A stretch of 64,000 nucleotides of DNA from the NCBI GenBank assembly GCA_027030245.1, contig JALVFE010000020.1, positions 1 through 64,000 of the forward strand, written 5' to 3'. The notes beneath the pieces are model-generated. The model saw nothing but the letters and a program-made list of their open reading frames with translations. It searched no databases and was not told the DNA's origin. The DNA is from Melioribacteraceae bacterium. GTDB lineage: Bacteria; Bacteroidota; Ignavibacteria; Ignavibacteriales; Melioribacteraceae. Every line of letters begins with the position of its first letter. Within the stretch, counting starts at the first letter, position 1. Both the position numbers and the translations under genes were made by a program. Shown in pieces: positions 38,397 to 45,197 of this stretch.

Positions 38397-39152
38397 ATGA
38401 AAGCAGATTACGAAAAAGAAAAAGATTTATATTTGTTATATAATGCCCCCGCTAAATTACTTTCTAAGTATAAGGAATTATTTCTTTCTATAGTTAGAAA
38501 GAGATTTAATTCTGATTTATATCCCGCTCTTGAACCTGAAGATATTGTCAATAATGTAATTTTGTCTTTACTCGACGGTAAATTCGAGACAGTAAAAAAG
38601 AATTTCAAAGGAAAATCGAAATTATCAACTTACTTATCAAAAATATTTATTAACGAATGTTATAAAGAATATAAAAAGATACACGCATCAAGAATAACGG
38701 ATATTAGTTTAACGAAACATAAAGAATTTATTTACAAAAATAGTTTATGGGATTTTAGTTTAGAAGAAGTTTATAATTTTCTAGACGAATACTTACATCA
38801 ATTCGGAGAGAAAAGACATAAAATTGAGTTGCTATTGAAAATTGTCTATCACGTAAAATTTGATGAAACGGATATTGAAAATTATAATAAAAACATCGGA
38901 AAGGCAGACCAAAATTTATTCTTCAAGAAACTATCACTAGAAAACGGTTATTTATTAAAGTCTGAGATTTACGAAATAGCAGCGGAATTTTTTAATAAAT
39001 ATGAAAAGAAACATTCATCCCCCGATGCATTAAGAAAATGGTTGGAATATTATAAAAATCAAATCATTAATAATTTAAGCTCAGTTTACAATTATGAATT
39101 TGACGAGAAAATGTTTGCTTTGTTAATAAGAGCTTATTATAGTAAAAAATAA
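38397..39152 (+). CDS. ECF-like RNA polymerase sigma factor with unusual C-terminus
   Basis: 251 aa. Residues about 25-95 follow sigma region 2: LFLSIVRKRFNSDLYPALEPEDIVNN..LLDGKF..FKGKSKLSTYLSKIFINECY, the pattern E/D-D-I-V-x-N-V..F-x-G-x-S-x-L-x-T-Y-L of ECF factors. The C-terminal half (about 110-251) does not show the usual sigma region 4 helix-turn-helix and is rich in Lys, Tyr and Phe. The next gene encodes a zinc-finger membrane anti-sigma factor, which supports the call. The codons are strongly AT-rich. Promoters in the island (39159, 43681, 45493) share one motif that this factor could recognise. Confidence 0.7.
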   Translation: MKADYEKEKDLYLLYNAPAKLLSKYKELFLSIVRKRFNSDLYPALEPEDIVNNVILSLLDGKFETVKKNFKGKSKLSTYLSKIFINECYKEYKKIHASRITDISLTKHKEFIYKNSLWDFSLEEVYNFLDEYLHQFGEKRHKIELLLKIVYHVKFDETDIENYNKNIGKADQNLFFKKLSLENGYLLKSEIYEIAAEFFNKYEKKHSSPDALRKWLEYYKNQIINNLSSVYNYEFDEKMFALLIRAYYSKK

Positions 39153-39158
39153 TTATGC

Positions 39159-39191
39159 TTTCTCCATTTAGAAAGGTTTTATTCTCTAATA
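39159..39191 (+). promoter_or_regulatory. Island promoter motif 1 (TTTCTCCA-N18-TCTAATA)
   Basis: TTTCTCCA at 39159-39166 and TCTAATA at 39185-39191, 18 bases between. The same two boxes with the same spacing lie at 43681 and 45493. It begins 6 bases after the sigma gene and ends 22 bases before the anti-sigma start codon, an ideal promoter position. Confidence 0.65.
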
Positions 39192-39213
39192 AAGGAAGGC
39201 AAAAGGAATAAAT

Positions 39214-39906
39214 ATGAAATTTGAATACAATAAAATTGATTTTTTTGATCAAGACGGACATTTGAGTGATGAAGCAATAGCGCTATACGTGGATGGGATG
39301 AAATTAGATCAACTCGAAAAATTACCCATTGAAATTCATAAACATCTAAGTAATTGCGAACAGTGTAATCTAAGCATATTAGAGTTATATAATTTTACGC
39401 AAAATATAGACATCGAAACCGGCGAACACCCGTTTTTCTCTGGGATAAGCAAACCGGATAAAAACTTGTATTTCTGGTTAAAAGTTGCTGCTGTTTTTAT
39501 AGTTGTTGTCACTATAGGAATTTCCGTTTACTTTTTTTCTCGTAATCACATATCTCAAAATAACTCGCTTGCTTTTGCAGAATTTGCCGAGTTTGAGCAA
39601 TTAATTGAAACAAAATACCGGAACGAAGCGGTAGAAATTATTTCTCCAAAGAATTCGGAAAATTTTGATGGAAAAGTTTTGTTCAAATGGAATCTTCCTT
39701 CCGCTTCAAAAGTTTATTTACAAATTTATGATAACAAAGGTAATATTGTGAAGGGGTTTGAACATATAACGACAAAAGGGCAGCAATATATACTAACCAA
39801 AGAGCTTCCGCCGGGACTTTATTATTGGAAGCTTATTACGGAAGGGGATATGCTCAGCGGAGGCGATGTTTTGTTTGTCGGAAAATTTTATTATAAAAAA
39901 GAATAA
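39214..39906 (+). CDS. Membrane anti-sigma factor with zinc finger and extracytoplasmic Ig-like domain
   Basis: 230 aa. Cytoplasmic part (1-85) contains the zinc-binding anti-sigma motif H44-x3-C48-x2-C51 (KHLSNCEQC). One membrane helix at about 88-108 (WLKVAAVFIVVVTIGISVYF). The C-terminal 100 residues lie outside and end in the beta-sandwich pattern VLFKWNLPSASKVYLQIYDN..LPPGLYYWKLITEGD. Anti-sigma factors of this layout hold an ECF factor until the external part is cut or altered. It ends 29 bases from the convergent stop of the CHAT protease gene, hinting at a functional pair. Confidence 0.75.
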   Translation: MKFEYNKIDFFDQDGHLSDEAIALYVDGMKLDQLEKLPIEIHKHLSNCEQCNLSILELYNFTQNIDIETGEHPFFSGISKPDKNLYFWLKVAAVFIVVVTIGISVYFFSRNHISQNNSLAFAEFAEFEQLIETKYRNEAVEIISPKNSENFDGKVLFKWNLPSASKVYLQIYDNKGNIVKGFEHITTKGQQYILTKELPPGLYYWKLITEGDMLSGGDVLFVGKFYYKKE

Positions 39907-39935
39907 AAGTTAGAATAATAATTTTAAGAAAAATA

Positions 39936-42900
39936 TTATATGCCAATCAGAACAAAACCGCTCCAATTACCGGGAAAAGCCGTTTCCTTTTTATTCATTA
40001 TTTTTAATTTGGCATTTCTTAAGGCGTTAGAATAATTTTTACCGTTAATGATATTTTTGTAAAACTCTATCATTAAATCTTTAGTAGTTTTATCGGAAAT
40101 ATTCCATAAGGAAGTCAGAATATTTCTTGCACCGGAATAAAGGAAACCACGGGTTAAAGCCATCATTCCTTCGCCTTTAATTATTTTCCCGATTCCACTT
40201 TTACAACTGCTTAAAACTACCAAATCCGCATTTAGGTTTAAGTTATATGTTTCCGCGGAATATAAAATTCCGTCTTCATTATCATCGGAATTGGAAGATT
40301 GTGCGAAGATGAGACCGGATAATTTCGGATTCTTCCCGTTTACAAGCCCGTGTGTTGCAATGTGTACATATTTGTAATTTTTACAATCTGTCTTAAAGTT
40401 TTTTTCATTTGCTTTGTTATTAAAATAACCTATTGCTTTTTTACCTTTTTGTTTGAACAAATTTACAATTGAATTTATTTCCGTTTCGGAATAGGGTAGT
40501 TCGTTAAAAGTTTTTCCGTCTATTGTAACCGAACGGAAATCGTCATTTATTTTGTTCGAATCAATTTCCAATGATTTTACAAAACGGTAATTCCTTTCGG
40601 CAATAAAATTGGAATTGTTTTCAGTTTTGAAAACAGGCGCAAAACCGATAAATCCTTTTCCTTTGCTAACTGATTTAAGATTGTTTACAAATAATTTTGC
40701 GGAATAATTATAAGATATATCAAAATGCTTTATTAAATAATCCAAACCGGAAAGATCTTTTGTAATGAGATTTGATGAGTTATTCACAAAAGATTCAAAT
40801 GGAACAAAATGTAAAATGCCGTCCGGTATTATTACTATTTTTTCTTTTAATTTTTCTTTTATAGGTTCTATCAATATTTTTTGGAGTTTCGAAGAAGTTT
40901 TAAAAAAGTTTTTCTTATCGTTTTGTTTAAGGGAAAAATAGTAATCCTTACATAATTTTTCAAAGTTATCTGTTTTGGGAAAAGAGCGAACATTAAAATC
41001 ATTTTTGGAGATAACAAATATATAAACAGTGCTGTCACCAACAAAATACTCAAGTAATGAAGTATTTTTATCAAGGGAATTTTGCAGTTCGGTAAGCGGA
41101 ACAACATCGGTTTTGTATTTTAACGAATAATAGCGCGGATAATTCTTTTCCAAATTTGTAATGAATCTATCATATTCTTGTTTTAAATCGAAAAATTTGT
41201 TTTCGAATTCCATGATTTTTGTACTGTCAGTATTCTCTTTTTTTGTTTTCTCCTTTTGAAGTTCCGTTTCATAGTAGGAGAGATCAACTCTTAAATCATA
41301 TTCTTTATCTCTCAATTTTTTTGGAATGCCTGAGAAATTTTCCGCAAAAGATTCTTGTAAAGAATTACTTAATACCGCTGCTTTGCTTTTTTCGGAAAAT
41401 TCGAATGCTTTCCTTTTGTAGATTTCTTTGCCGGTTAAGTTATATAACTCCAAAGCAACACTAATAGCGCCTTCAAAAACTTCCCTTGTTTGTTCACCAA
41501 GGAAAAGTTTTGAACCTTCTGATTTATATCCGGTGCGGATTTTATCTATTATTTGTATTGCTAAATCATATGTCGAGAAAGAAGCTTTCTTGTCATTTAT
41601 CGAGGTAAAATACTTATCTAGTAAAAAAGCTTTGGCTTTAATAGCTTCTAATAATGAATTACTTGCAACTATAATTTTTGGCTTAGGATTTTCATTATAA
41701 TCCATGCTATGAAAATTAGAAACATTAGAAATTATAGCATTTTGGAATTGGATTAATGCATCAAAATATTTCTTTTGTACTGTGTATAACTCACCTAATA
41801 ATAAGTAACTTTTACCAAGATTATAATGCTTATTTCCAAAAATATTTTTATTTATGGATATAGCCTTTCTGAGAAATTTAAATGCCAGATTGTATTTATT
41901 CATTTTTATATAAACTTCACCTAAATTATTATAACAATTTGATATTTTTATATTATTATCTGTAAAGTTCGCTTTAAAAACTTTAAGTGCTTCCTTATAT
42001 TCATGTTCTGCTAATAAATAATTTTTTTTTGCAAAATATAAATTTCCAATGTTATTATGAGTTATTGCGATGTCAGGATGATTTTTACGCAGGGTTTGAT
42101 ACTGTATATTTAGAGCTTTTTTATAAGCAGCAATTGATTTTTCATTATCTCCAAGGTACTTGAATACAGTTGCAATATTATTATATATTGATGCAGTAGA
42201 TGGATGTTTTTCACCTATAGTTTTTAATGTAATATTTAATGCTTTTTTATAGTATTCTAAAGATTTGAAATAATCACCAATGTCCATGTATAAACTTCCG
42301 ATATTTTTATAGCGATCTGCAATTTGTGAAGAAATTTGTGAATCATTTGGGTCTTTCGTTTCCAAAAGGATAGTCAAAGACTTTTTGAAAATATCTAATG
42401 CTTTTATAAGTTCACCTTTCTCCCTATAAACTAATGCAATATTATTGTAAGTGTGTGAGATACTTTTATGAAGTTTACGATCTTTTGGTGAAATACTCTT
42501 TTGCTTATCAAGTAATCTAAAATAAACTTTTAACGCTTTTTTATATTGACAGTTTCTAAAATAAATATTACCAAGAAGTTGATGACCTCCAAGCACATAT
42601 TTATGGCCCTTTCCTAAGTTTCTGTTACCAACTTGTTCAATTTTGATAGCAGTTTCTATTGCATTGTTTAATTGACCATTTAATTCATAGCTTCTTCCAA
42701 GCATTAACATAAATCTTAAGTATTCATCCCAAATATTATTTTTTTTAAAATAAGTACATGCTTTTTTTGCATATACTATAGAACTATCATATTGTCCACC
42801 AATAAAAAATTTCTTAACATTTCGTGAGTAGTGTAAAACTTGAGGCCAATATTTCTCTTTCTGTTTTAATTTTTCTTTTTTCGAAATTGTATCTTGACCT

Positions 42901-42944
42901 AATATCAAGCCATAAATTAAAAATAAAAAAAGAAAGGTTTTCAT
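39936..42944 (-). CDS. Exported TPR-CHAT caspase-like protease
   Basis: 1002 aa from ATG 42944 (MKTFLFLFLIYGLILGQ is a signal peptide; an upstream in-frame start at 43001 is rejected, and GGAGATCG precedes this ATG). Residues about 25-480 are tandem TPR units of roughly 42 residues (N-N-I-x-x-x-Y-x-x-G-x-x-x-x-A-L-x-x-Y-x-K-A-L). The C-terminal CHAT domain has the catalytic pair His865 (HIATHG) and Cys914 (VVLSSCKSG), with the conserved GILYSAETYNL, FLYSGARNILTSLWNISD and F-x-LIG end. CHAT proteins are caspase-fold peptidases. Being exported, it could act on the outside half of the neighbouring anti-sigma factor. Confidence 0.88.
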   Translation of the reverse strand: MKTFLFLFLIYGLILGQDTISKKEKLKQKEKYWPQVLHYSRNVKKFFIGGQYDSSIVYAKKACTYFKKNNIWDEYLRFMLMLGRSYELNGQLNNAIETAIKIEQVGNRNLGKGHKYVLGGHQLLGNIYFRNCQYKKALKVYFRLLDKQKSISPKDRKLHKSISHTYNNIALVYREKGELIKALDIFKKSLTILLETKDPNDSQISSQIADRYKNIGSLYMDIGDYFKSLEYYKKALNITLKTIGEKHPSTASIYNNIATVFKYLGDNEKSIAAYKKALNIQYQTLRKNHPDIAITHNNIGNLYFAKKNYLLAEHEYKEALKVFKANFTDNNIKISNCYNNLGEVYIKMNKYNLAFKFLRKAISINKNIFGNKHYNLGKSYLLLGELYTVQKKYFDALIQFQNAIISNVSNFHSMDYNENPKPKIIVASNSLLEAIKAKAFLLDKYFTSINDKKASFSTYDLAIQIIDKIRTGYKSEGSKLFLGEQTREVFEGAISVALELYNLTGKEIYKRKAFEFSEKSKAAVLSNSLQESFAENFSGIPKKLRDKEYDLRVDLSYYETELQKEKTKKENTDSTKIMEFENKFFDLKQEYDRFITNLEKNYPRYYSLKYKTDVVPLTELQNSLDKNTSLLEYFVGDSTVYIFVISKNDFNVRSFPKTDNFEKLCKDYYFSLKQNDKKNFFKTSSKLQKILIEPIKEKLKEKIVIIPDGILHFVPFESFVNNSSNLITKDLSGLDYLIKHFDISYNYSAKLFVNNLKSVSKGKGFIGFAPVFKTENNSNFIAERNYRFVKSLEIDSNKINDDFRSVTIDGKTFNELPYSETEINSIVNLFKQKGKKAIGYFNNKANEKNFKTDCKNYKYVHIATHGLVNGKNPKLSGLIFAQSSNSDDNEDGILYSAETYNLNLNADLVVLSSCKSGIGKIIKGEGMMALTRGFLYSGARNILTSLWNISDKTTKDLMIEFYKNIINGKNYSNALRNAKLKIMNKKETAFPGNWSGFVLIGI

Positions 42945-43733: not shown

Positions 43734-45197
43734 ATGAAAATATATCAAAATAAATCGAAAATAAATATTCTATATGGTCTTTTAGAGGAAGCAAATAATA
43801 TAAGCTTTGATTTGCCCAGGGAATATTTGGAATGGTTTTTAAAAAAAACGACCGACTTATTTACTGAAGAAGAACTCTTATTTATGAATGTTCAATATTT
43901 ATTTATTGACGATTTCGCCGGGAAATTAATAAAGTTTAATAAAATAAATTATACACCTGCAATTGTTAATAAAAAAAACATCCCCGAAGATTTCTTAATT
44001 CAAAGACTTCATGGTGTTTTAACATTCTTTTATTCACTAGGGATAAAGGGTTATTTAAGTCACTTAGTCTTTGGGCTGCCTCCCGGGCTCTTAAAAAAGA
44101 AATTTATACTTGAAACCATATTGATTGATAATAACAAACAGATTAAAAAACCACTGGTATATGACTCTAAACTTAATAAACTTAGATTAAACGTTCCTAA
44201 TTTATATCATCCTTCTGTTTTTAAAAAATATCTTAGTGATTTAACAGAAAAAATAAAACTTAGTTTTAAATTCTATAAAAACGATTTTATAATTATTGAC
44301 GGTACTAAATTTGATATTCTTGTTAATGAAATTGTAAAAAAAGAACGTACTTTAGAGTTTATATTATTTATAAATAATTTATTTAAAAGAAAAGATGTAA
44401 CAGAATATTTGAATTTTACAAAAAGTTACTTTAAGGAACATCTGAGTAAGTTGATCAAATACGATAATGAAAAGGACCTAAATCTGTTACTGGAAGGAGC
44501 ATTACTCCATTCATTTTTTAAGGGGATAACGTTTTCATATCAAATACCTATTTTAAGTATGCTAAAGGAAGATGAATATTGTGATCTCGGCGCGATTATG
44601 CTTACTACTAAGCAAAAACTTGATGCCGAAACTTTGCAGATAATTATAATTGCTTTTGAAATGGTAATTAAACAACTTAGAGAATTTAATTTGTATAAGA
44701 AAAGCAAGAATCCCGGAAGAAATGTTTATCTTACGGAATATCTTGATAAAAACTTTATAAACGGATTGGAGAAAACCCATCTTAATATTTTAAGTCTATT
44801 ACGTAACAATTCCTTTAATATTTCACAAACTACTGACACTCTAAATATGAATGGGAACAGATCAATTAGACGTAAAACGGTTGTTAGATATACAAAAGAA
44901 ATATTCCTCTATTTCTTAGCTAAAAATAATTTCGATTTGGAGCGTGCAATATTGCAGTTGGCTAATAGTGGAAATAATAAAAAAATTATTGCTAAAAAGT
45001 ATAAAGACTATTTTCTGGGGCATAAAGGGATATTAACAATAATTACAAAGGGCAAAAGCAAAGAAAAAGAAATTATTAAAAATTCATTACGAATAAGGTA
45101 TCGTAAATACTTTATTAACTTTGAAAAATATGTAAATGAGAACAAAAATACATTATCCGAGTGGAAAGAAATTATTGAGCAATATCTTATAGATTAG
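43734..45197 (+). CDS. Unknown 487-aa protein, possibly DNA-binding
   Basis: Not recognised. 487 aa, Lys/Ile/Asn-rich, no signal peptide or membrane helix. Around residues 350-415 there are two helix-turn-helix-like stretches, NILSLLRNNSFNISQTTDTL and IFLYFLAKNNFDLERAILQL, spaced like Fis-type or tandem HTH units. The N-terminal 330 residues give no family. No good ribosome site, and the start codon lies 20 bases behind a clear copy of the island promoter motif, so it may be translated from a short leader. The gene likely belongs to the sigma regulon of the island. Confidence 0.6.
   Translation: MKIYQNKSKINILYGLLEEANNISFDLPREYLEWFLKKTTDLFTEEELLFMNVQYLFIDDFAGKLIKFNKINYTPAIVNKKNIPEDFLIQRLHGVLTFFYSLGIKGYLSHLVFGLPPGLLKKKFILETILIDNNKQIKKPLVYDSKLNKLRLNVPNLYHPSVFKKYLSDLTEKIKLSFKFYKNDFIIIDGTKFDILVNEIVKKERTLEFILFINNLFKRKDVTEYLNFTKSYFKEHLSKLIKYDNEKDLNLLLEGALLHSFFKGITFSYQIPILSMLKEDEYCDLGAIMLTTKQKLDAETLQIIIIAFEMVIKQLREFNLYKKSKNPGRNVYLTEYLDKNFINGLEKTHLNILSLLRNNSFNISQTTDTLNMNGNRSIRRKTVVRYTKEIFLYFLAKNNFDLERAILQLANSGNNKKIIAKKYKDYFLGHKGILTIITKGKSKEKEIIKNSLRIRYRKYFINFEKYVNENKNTLSEWKEIIEQYLID

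Follow-up and report, generated by a model that had tools for sequence, protein, structure and literature searches.

We know of no substrate for most bacterial CHAT proteases. Csx29, the tetratricopeptide repeat (TPR)-CHAT protease of type III-E Craspase, is described as relieving the inhibition of an extracytoplasmic function (ECF)-type sigma factor, and the same source has the RseA/DegS and RsiW pathways begin with cleavage of the membrane anti-sigma factor (PMC10028731). In Myxococcus xanthus, the ECF sigma factor DdvS is paired with the transmembrane anti-sigma factor DdvA, which contains a CHAT fold, and ECF54 sigma factors have CHAT proteins in their genetic context, with proteolytic control proposed (PMC8999054). 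Here, we describe a related locus in the window, a stretch of 64,000 nucleotides (contig JALVFE010000020.1, assembly GCA_027030245.1) from a Melioribacteraceae bacterium, in which a sigma-like gene and a membrane anti-sigma gene face the gene for a predicted exported TPR-CHAT protease. From sequence comparison, we think it probable that the three form one module, in which the exported protease would cut the anti-sigma factor after Arg136 and free the sigma factor.

The locus differs from each of these systems. In the RseA and RsiW pathways, the first cut falls to a protease not of the CHAT type (DegS for RseA), unlike in the system proposed here. In DdvA, CHAT is fused to the anti-sigma protein, whereas here it is encoded by a separate convergent gene. 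The passages on ECF54 in PMC8999054 describe CHAT or subtilase neighbors and no anti-sigma factor, whereas here an anti-sigma gene adjoins and bears the candidate cleavage site. Among the matches listed in our literature search, which covered few subscription papers, we recognized none that describes CHAT as a stand-alone protease acting on a membrane anti-sigma factor; this is weak evidence of novelty.

The sequence-only reading of this stretch had placed a tandem sigma/anti-sigma pair opposite a TPR-CHAT gene, and the coordinates confirm it, with 29 bases between the stop codons of the anti-sigma and TPR-CHAT genes. The features are as follows.

38397..39152, + strand: divergent ECF-type sigma-like gene, 251 residues; region 2 detectable, region 4 unrecognized
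39214..39906, + strand: membrane anti-sigma gene, 230 residues
39343..39366, + strand: zinc motif H44-x3-C48-x2-C51 of the cytoplasmic anti-sigma domain
39478..39540, + strand: membrane helix, about residues 89-109
39574..39624, + strand: conserved outer linker motif, residues 121-137 (F121, E128, R136)
39619..39621, + strand: codon of Arg136 (CGG), the residue proposed as P1 for CHAT cleavage
39634..39903, + strand: outer Ig/FN3-like beta-domain, residues 141-230
39936..42944, - strand: TPR-CHAT protease gene, 1002 residues, predicted exported; convergent with the sigma/anti-sigma pair
40092..40094, - strand: Asp951 codon, proposed S1 acidic residue; starts the helix after the Cys strand
40203..40205, - strand: codon of catalytic Cys914; conserved in 30/30 aligned CHAT proteins, window included
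40350..40352, - strand: codon of catalytic His865; conserved in 30/30 aligned CHAT proteins, window included

We found that the CHAT protein matches PF12770 at E 1.3e-60, scoring 205.7 bits where the curated cut-off is 24. When its single CHAT domain was searched by sequence against the PDB, no match was credible. Its structural model (mean predicted local distance difference test [pLDDT] score, 83.3) matched the fold of Csx29 best (Z 25.1), followed by separase (ctSPD; 22.8), DdvA (8rot; 20.7), and gingipain R (17.7). As read earlier, the protein has an intact His865/Cys914 pair and an N-terminal hydrophobic segment, MKTFLFLFLIYGLILG, that fits a signal peptide, as judged by simple hydropathy and by eye.

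The anti-sigma protein likewise has the architecture ascribed to it, with a zinc motif inside and a beta-domain outside. Its zf-HC2 score falls below the cut-off, but among solved structures its profile best matches RsiW, a zinc anti-sigma factor (E 0.041). It has the H-x3-C-x2-C inner domain and the single membrane helix of the zinc-binding anti-sigma (ZAS) proteins. In the AlphaFold2 model (mean pLDDT, 87.8), a helix at 125-132 is followed by a loop at 133-140 that contains R136 and then by the first strand of the outer domain, which resembles FN3/Ig modules by structure comparison.

The sigma factor is the weak point of the earlier reading, as the gene is divergent. The 251-residue protein resembles TIGR02937 (E 7.6e-9; 35.4 bits, under the cut-off of 42.9) and Pfam region 2 (E 0.02, also below cut-off), and a Pfam profile scan found no region 4 in it. 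We scanned 10 sigma-position proteins from other loci: four (L036, L037, L051, and L204; L, G, and C numbers are our handles for loci, genomes, and contigs) carry region 4 over the cut-off, L067 matches region 2 weakly and nothing else, L043 matches leucine-rich repeats, and four (L040, L065, L128, and L182) match no profile. The window gene was dropped as a search probe, as it gave one weak match besides itself among 58 genomes.

We then asked how often the CHAT and anti-sigma genes occur together. A CHAT protein at E<1e-120 is encoded in 10 of the 146 genomes of the order, window included, with a gap below these 10 from 6.9e-127 to 4.8e-51. All 10 carry a same-type anti-sigma gene convergent beside the CHAT gene. 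The G100 copy is partial: the contig ends beside CHAT, and its terminal 75 bases match positions 233-257 of the anti-sigma model. The anti-sigma model alone found 10 genomes at E<1e-30, nine of them CHAT genomes (P 1.5e-12, relatedness ignored). In the remaining genome, G082, a CHAT gene of lower similarity lies about 10 kb off on the same contig, and by eye a divergent gene resembling the window's sigma gene (L182, 2350-3117) adjoins its same-type anti-sigma gene.

The pairing extends beyond the local lineage and recurs in bins of several phyla. We scanned named genomes by CHAT alone and kept the best 78 loci. An anti-sigma gene is present at 30 of these, all metagenome bins and seven of them contigs already in the order set; in 27, it is convergent within 1.5 kb, and some of the convergent pairs overlap by up to 20 bases. 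The titles of the 30 loci name Calditrichaceae, Caldithrix, KSB1, Ignavibacteria, Melioribacteraceae, Aminicenantes, Neomarinimicrobiota, Acidobacteria, and Bacteroidetes. Once repeated loci are removed, 35 CHAT rows have an anti-sigma gene, and in 28 of them a sigma-profile match comes next upstream. (Eight repeats of the L035-L043 contigs, namely, L057, L058, L062, L063, L064, L069, L089, and L109, were excluded from the type I tables, and profile anti3, which drifted into TPR proteins on iteration, was disregarded.)

In 20 same-phylum genomes, picked by their anti-sigma matches, we counted 44 anti-sigma genes; 35 have a CHAT gene no more than 8 kb away, against 0.65 expected. The anti-sigma list was limited to matches of about 1e-9 or better in an open frame of roughly 180 to 340 residues, and three CHAT rows were omitted (two second pieces of one gene and one below the cut-off). 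The caspase family PF00656 was rejected as an alternative partner: it occurs in 8 of the 20 genomes, versus 19 for CHAT. The sequence-only reading had named freely varying neighbors as a result that would speak against it and co-occurrence elsewhere as a check; we found that the neighbors recur together across the order, the phyla, and three layouts.

The window has the convergent layout. In the second, tandem layout, the order is sigma, anti-sigma, and then a CHAT gene of 1110 to 1162 residues; the outer part of the anti-sigma factors is TPR-like, and each CHAT protein carries one hydrophobic segment at the N terminus and another at the C terminus. CHAT and anti-sigma genes are present in 23/23 tandem loci, and a sigma match is present in 22/23. 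Twenty of these loci (CHAT and anti-sigma, 20/20; sigma match, 19/20) comprise 16 chosen since their anti-sigma and CHAT matches shared a contig and four (G039, G130, G022, and G049) chosen by CHAT alone. The remaining three, L049, L051, and L053, were chosen by CHAT alone in a batch in which seven others show no adjoining anti-sigma gene; L051 (contig C32) belongs to the window's own genome. In the split layout (L047, L202, L203, and L204), a stand-alone gene of about 250 residues inside the sigma operon encodes the catalytic part of CHAT, and a second gene, convergent with it, encodes the TPR part together with the remainder of CHAT.

Most columns between the membrane helix and the outer domain are less than 50% conserved across 31 Ig-type anti-sigma factors. 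(L047, L056, and L073 were left out of alignment A7, and L182 was added to it.) R136, however, is present in 30 of the 31. The residue that follows is mostly Ser and otherwise another small residue or Asn/Asp. The tandem anti-sigma proteins have a counterpart, Arg184, conserved in 23/23. An Arg followed by a small residue occurs in 56 of 62 TPR-type anti-sigma factors; six of the 56 (L047, L202, L203, L204, L316, and L322) are one-column alignment shifts counted as Arg by eye. In a fresh sample drawn from 296 same-phylum genomes (Bacteroidota, in our reading), 33 of 40 aligned loci have the Arg. Seventeen anti-sigma factors taken from places with no CHAT gene close by differ in their outer domain and, read by eye, show nothing that corresponds to the motif; these controls were picked for the absence of a listed CHAT nearby and therefore test the motif, not the linkage. 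An earlier regular-expression count of Arg over a 110-residue window was too loose and was superseded by alignment columns.

The protease offers a candidate partner for this arginine. Asp951, conserved in 30/30 aligned CHAT proteins, window included, lies 37 residues after Cys914 at the start of the helix that follows the Cys914 strand in the model. In a model of Caenorhabditis elegans separase, the P1 Arg is described as contacting Asp1082, which sits where helix alpha-4 begins (PMC4626109). By topology and spacing, we propose that Asp951 is the equivalent residue. Asp951 is common to CHAT proteins of many kinds and therefore is by itself no proof of arginine specificity.

We compared the two positions across 94 pairs within 8 kb (62 TPR-type and 32 Ig-type; L051_13, an unrelated 147-residue anti-sigma protein 5.6 kb away, was omitted beforehand). 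The site residue is Arg in 87 pairs (56 TPR-type and 31 Ig-type) and Met in five; L105 and L331 fall in neither class, and both have Asp at 951. Where the site is Arg, residue 951 is Asp in 86 of 87 partners and Ala in one (L332). Where it is Met, Asp951 is replaced in four of five: residue 951 is Glu in L258, L259, and L260, Asn in L317, and Asp in L271. Arg versus Met is associated with residue 951 (Fisher, 9e-6, clades ignored). The catalytic His and Cys are present in 94 of 95 CHAT partners, the exception being a 174-residue fragment.

Alternatively, the arginine motif may serve in docking or folding: the outer domain of the anti-sigma factor would bind and restrain CHAT, or CHAT would bind that domain and leave it uncut, and signaling would go by complex formation. 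F121 and E128 are also conserved, each in 26 of the 31 Ig-type proteins, and in the model E128 lies in a helix next to R136, as could be expected of a docking surface. In addition, single changes around the Jc-Craspase cut site are reported not to have mattered (PMC11106740). In contrast, the Arg-small pair precedes two unlike outer domains (Ig-like and TPR) and occurs in two cytoplasmic-looking pairs, loss of the arginine accompanies a change at the protease residue that we place at the P1-arginine contact, and His and Cys are retained almost throughout. We consider docking unlikely, although it is the strongest of the alternatives.

We also compared the compartments of the two proteins. The sequence-only reading had named a cytoplasmic CHAT protein as a refuting result, and we found instead the signal-peptide-like N terminus described above. 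Scored by simple hydropathy, 27 convergent pairs combine a membrane anti-sigma factor with an export-like CHAT N terminus, and two further pairs, L121 and L124, have neither the anchor nor the export signal yet retain the arginine. (For L121, the CHAT partner was taken as the protein 2.9 kb away for compartments and as the adjacent 174-residue fragment for residue counts; L047, L068, L073, and L092 were left out for a split layout or an unreadable end.) The association of export with anchoring has a P of about 0.003 (computed on 26 pairs, with 27 counted). This argues for a meeting of the two proteins in one compartment and against the motif being that of a periplasmic site 1 protease.

A second alternative makes CHAT a product of sigma activity, such as a self-killing or defense protease, with an ordinary site 1 protease cutting the anti-sigma factor at the arginine. 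Some clan CD proteases are killing effectors. DdvS is described as controlling an anti-phage defense island (PMC12288465). However, CHAT lies outside the sigma operon in the convergent form, and shared regulation leaves both the arginine/951 covariation and the matched export signals unexplained. We judge this reading slightly less likely still than docking. That the neighborhood reflects chance or hitch-hiking is very improbable: three same-genus relatives lack the arrangement, but it recurs in several phyla and three layouts, with 35 of 44 genes linked against 0.65 expected.

Several observations weigh against the module, in its linkage, its site, or its sigma component. Neither the sigma gene nor the CHAT ortholog is present in the window's three same-genus relatives, and 7 of 11 less similar CHAT loci show no adjoining anti-sigma gene. 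No anti-sigma gene was detected at 48 of the 78 CHAT loci, with the downstream sequence short in only nine. Within the 20 genomes, 9 of 44 anti-sigma genes have no CHAT gene within 8 kb (two have none on the contig), 22 of 58 CHAT genes have no such anti-sigma gene within 8 kb, and G405 keeps an anti-sigma gene with no CHAT match anywhere in its genome. As for the site, the aligned column holds no Arg in L105, which has one close by, or in 7 of the 40 phylum-sample loci, and 20 of those 40, mostly with Arg, have no CHAT in the fetched stretch; for many such loci, CHAT is 4 to 7 kb away. The covariation is probably carried by two or three events, as L258-L260 look like one clade and L317 like another, and it has exceptions: L332 keeps Arg (then Glu) with Ala at 951, L271 reads as Met or His depending on the alignment with Asp at 951, and L331 retains Asp951 without the motif. 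Finally, tandem locus L168 has no sigma match, and the protein in the sigma slot of L043 has leucine-rich repeats and no recognized sigma domain.

Taken together, these data are most consistent with proteolytic release of the sigma factor. According to this model, the zinc domain of the anti-sigma factor would hold the sigma-like protein at the membrane, as expected from its family. The exported TPR-CHAT protein, a putative separase/Csx29-like cysteine protease, would be activated by a signal, which its TPR repeats may sense, and would cut after Arg136, in the extracytoplasmic loop just before the outer Ig-like domain. Removal of the shortened anchor, probably by a site 2 protease (S2P) together with a cytoplasmic protease, would then set the sigma factor free to act on its target genes. 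The window's own genome encodes S2P-like proteases (PF02163). The sequence-only reading had proposed a CHAT cut in the outer portion of the anti-sigma factor; to this predicted cut we add a candidate site, R136, and the covariation of that site with a protease residue.

Comparison shows the conserved linkage, the matching compartments, the single conserved arginine, the intact active site, and the covariation of that arginine with residue 951; the cut, the signal, the release, and the target genes are inferred. Separase (C50) shares the fold, and it has an Asp that starts the helix after the Cys strand and an Arg at P1 (PMC4626109), as proposed here for the CHAT protein and its site. It differs in being eukaryotic, in cutting cohesin, and in having Glu at P4, whereas a P4 Glu is not conserved here. 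With Craspase, the locus shares the CHAT fold and, in our model, the principle of a TPR-CHAT protease that relieves sigma inhibition. The earlier link holds as one of fold; membership in that system does not. The Craspase protease acts inside the cell, whereas the window CHAT protein has a signal-peptide-like N terminus; Craspase is RNA triggered with Cas7-11 (gRAMP) and has Csx30 as a partner, and the window system is predicted to be exported or membrane tethered. Cas models matched none of five window genes scanned, including the direct neighbors on one side. Two Csx29 chains align Ser with position 951, although these alignments are weak, whereas Asp is found here. Known Craspases are reported to cut after Leu, Met, or Ala and at nonconserved sites (PMC11106740), in contrast to the fixed arginine here.

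Some neighboring genes are of interest in their own right. On the promoter side of CHAT in the window, positions 43734-45197 encode a 487-residue protein with no Pfam or NCBIfam match over the cut-off. The anti-sigma gene of G405 (C8, 136980-137534) has the Arg motif and no adjoining sigma match and may belong to a decaying module. A gene of about 540 residues occupies the sigma position in L043 (9666-11306, - strand) and L075 (11152-12771, - strand). The sequence TTAGT-N18-GTGA lies upstream of 9 of 22 tandem sigma genes (e.g., L051, L169, and L175), and several tandem sigma genes have GTGACA near the start codon. In L250, L256, L276, and L282, PKD or leucine-rich proteins, possible signal partners, are encoded near the sigma/anti-sigma pair; those of L250 and L256 have type IX secretion system (T9SS) sorting tails.

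Beyond this locus, we lean, with less confidence than for the window itself, toward the view that separase-like, arginine-specific CHAT proteases are widespread, dedicated triggers of ECF sigma systems, in convergent, tandem, and split forms and in periplasmic and cytoplasmic versions, and that in some lineages Met has replaced Arg at the site while the pocket changed along with it. If this is true, a large set of CHAT proteins would gain a predicted substrate, a predicted bond, a pocket residue, and a simple read-out in sigma activity. A bacterial transcription switch would then have an Arg-specific separase-like protease as its outer trigger, and Craspase would be one case of a wider tendency of CHAT proteases to free sigma factors.

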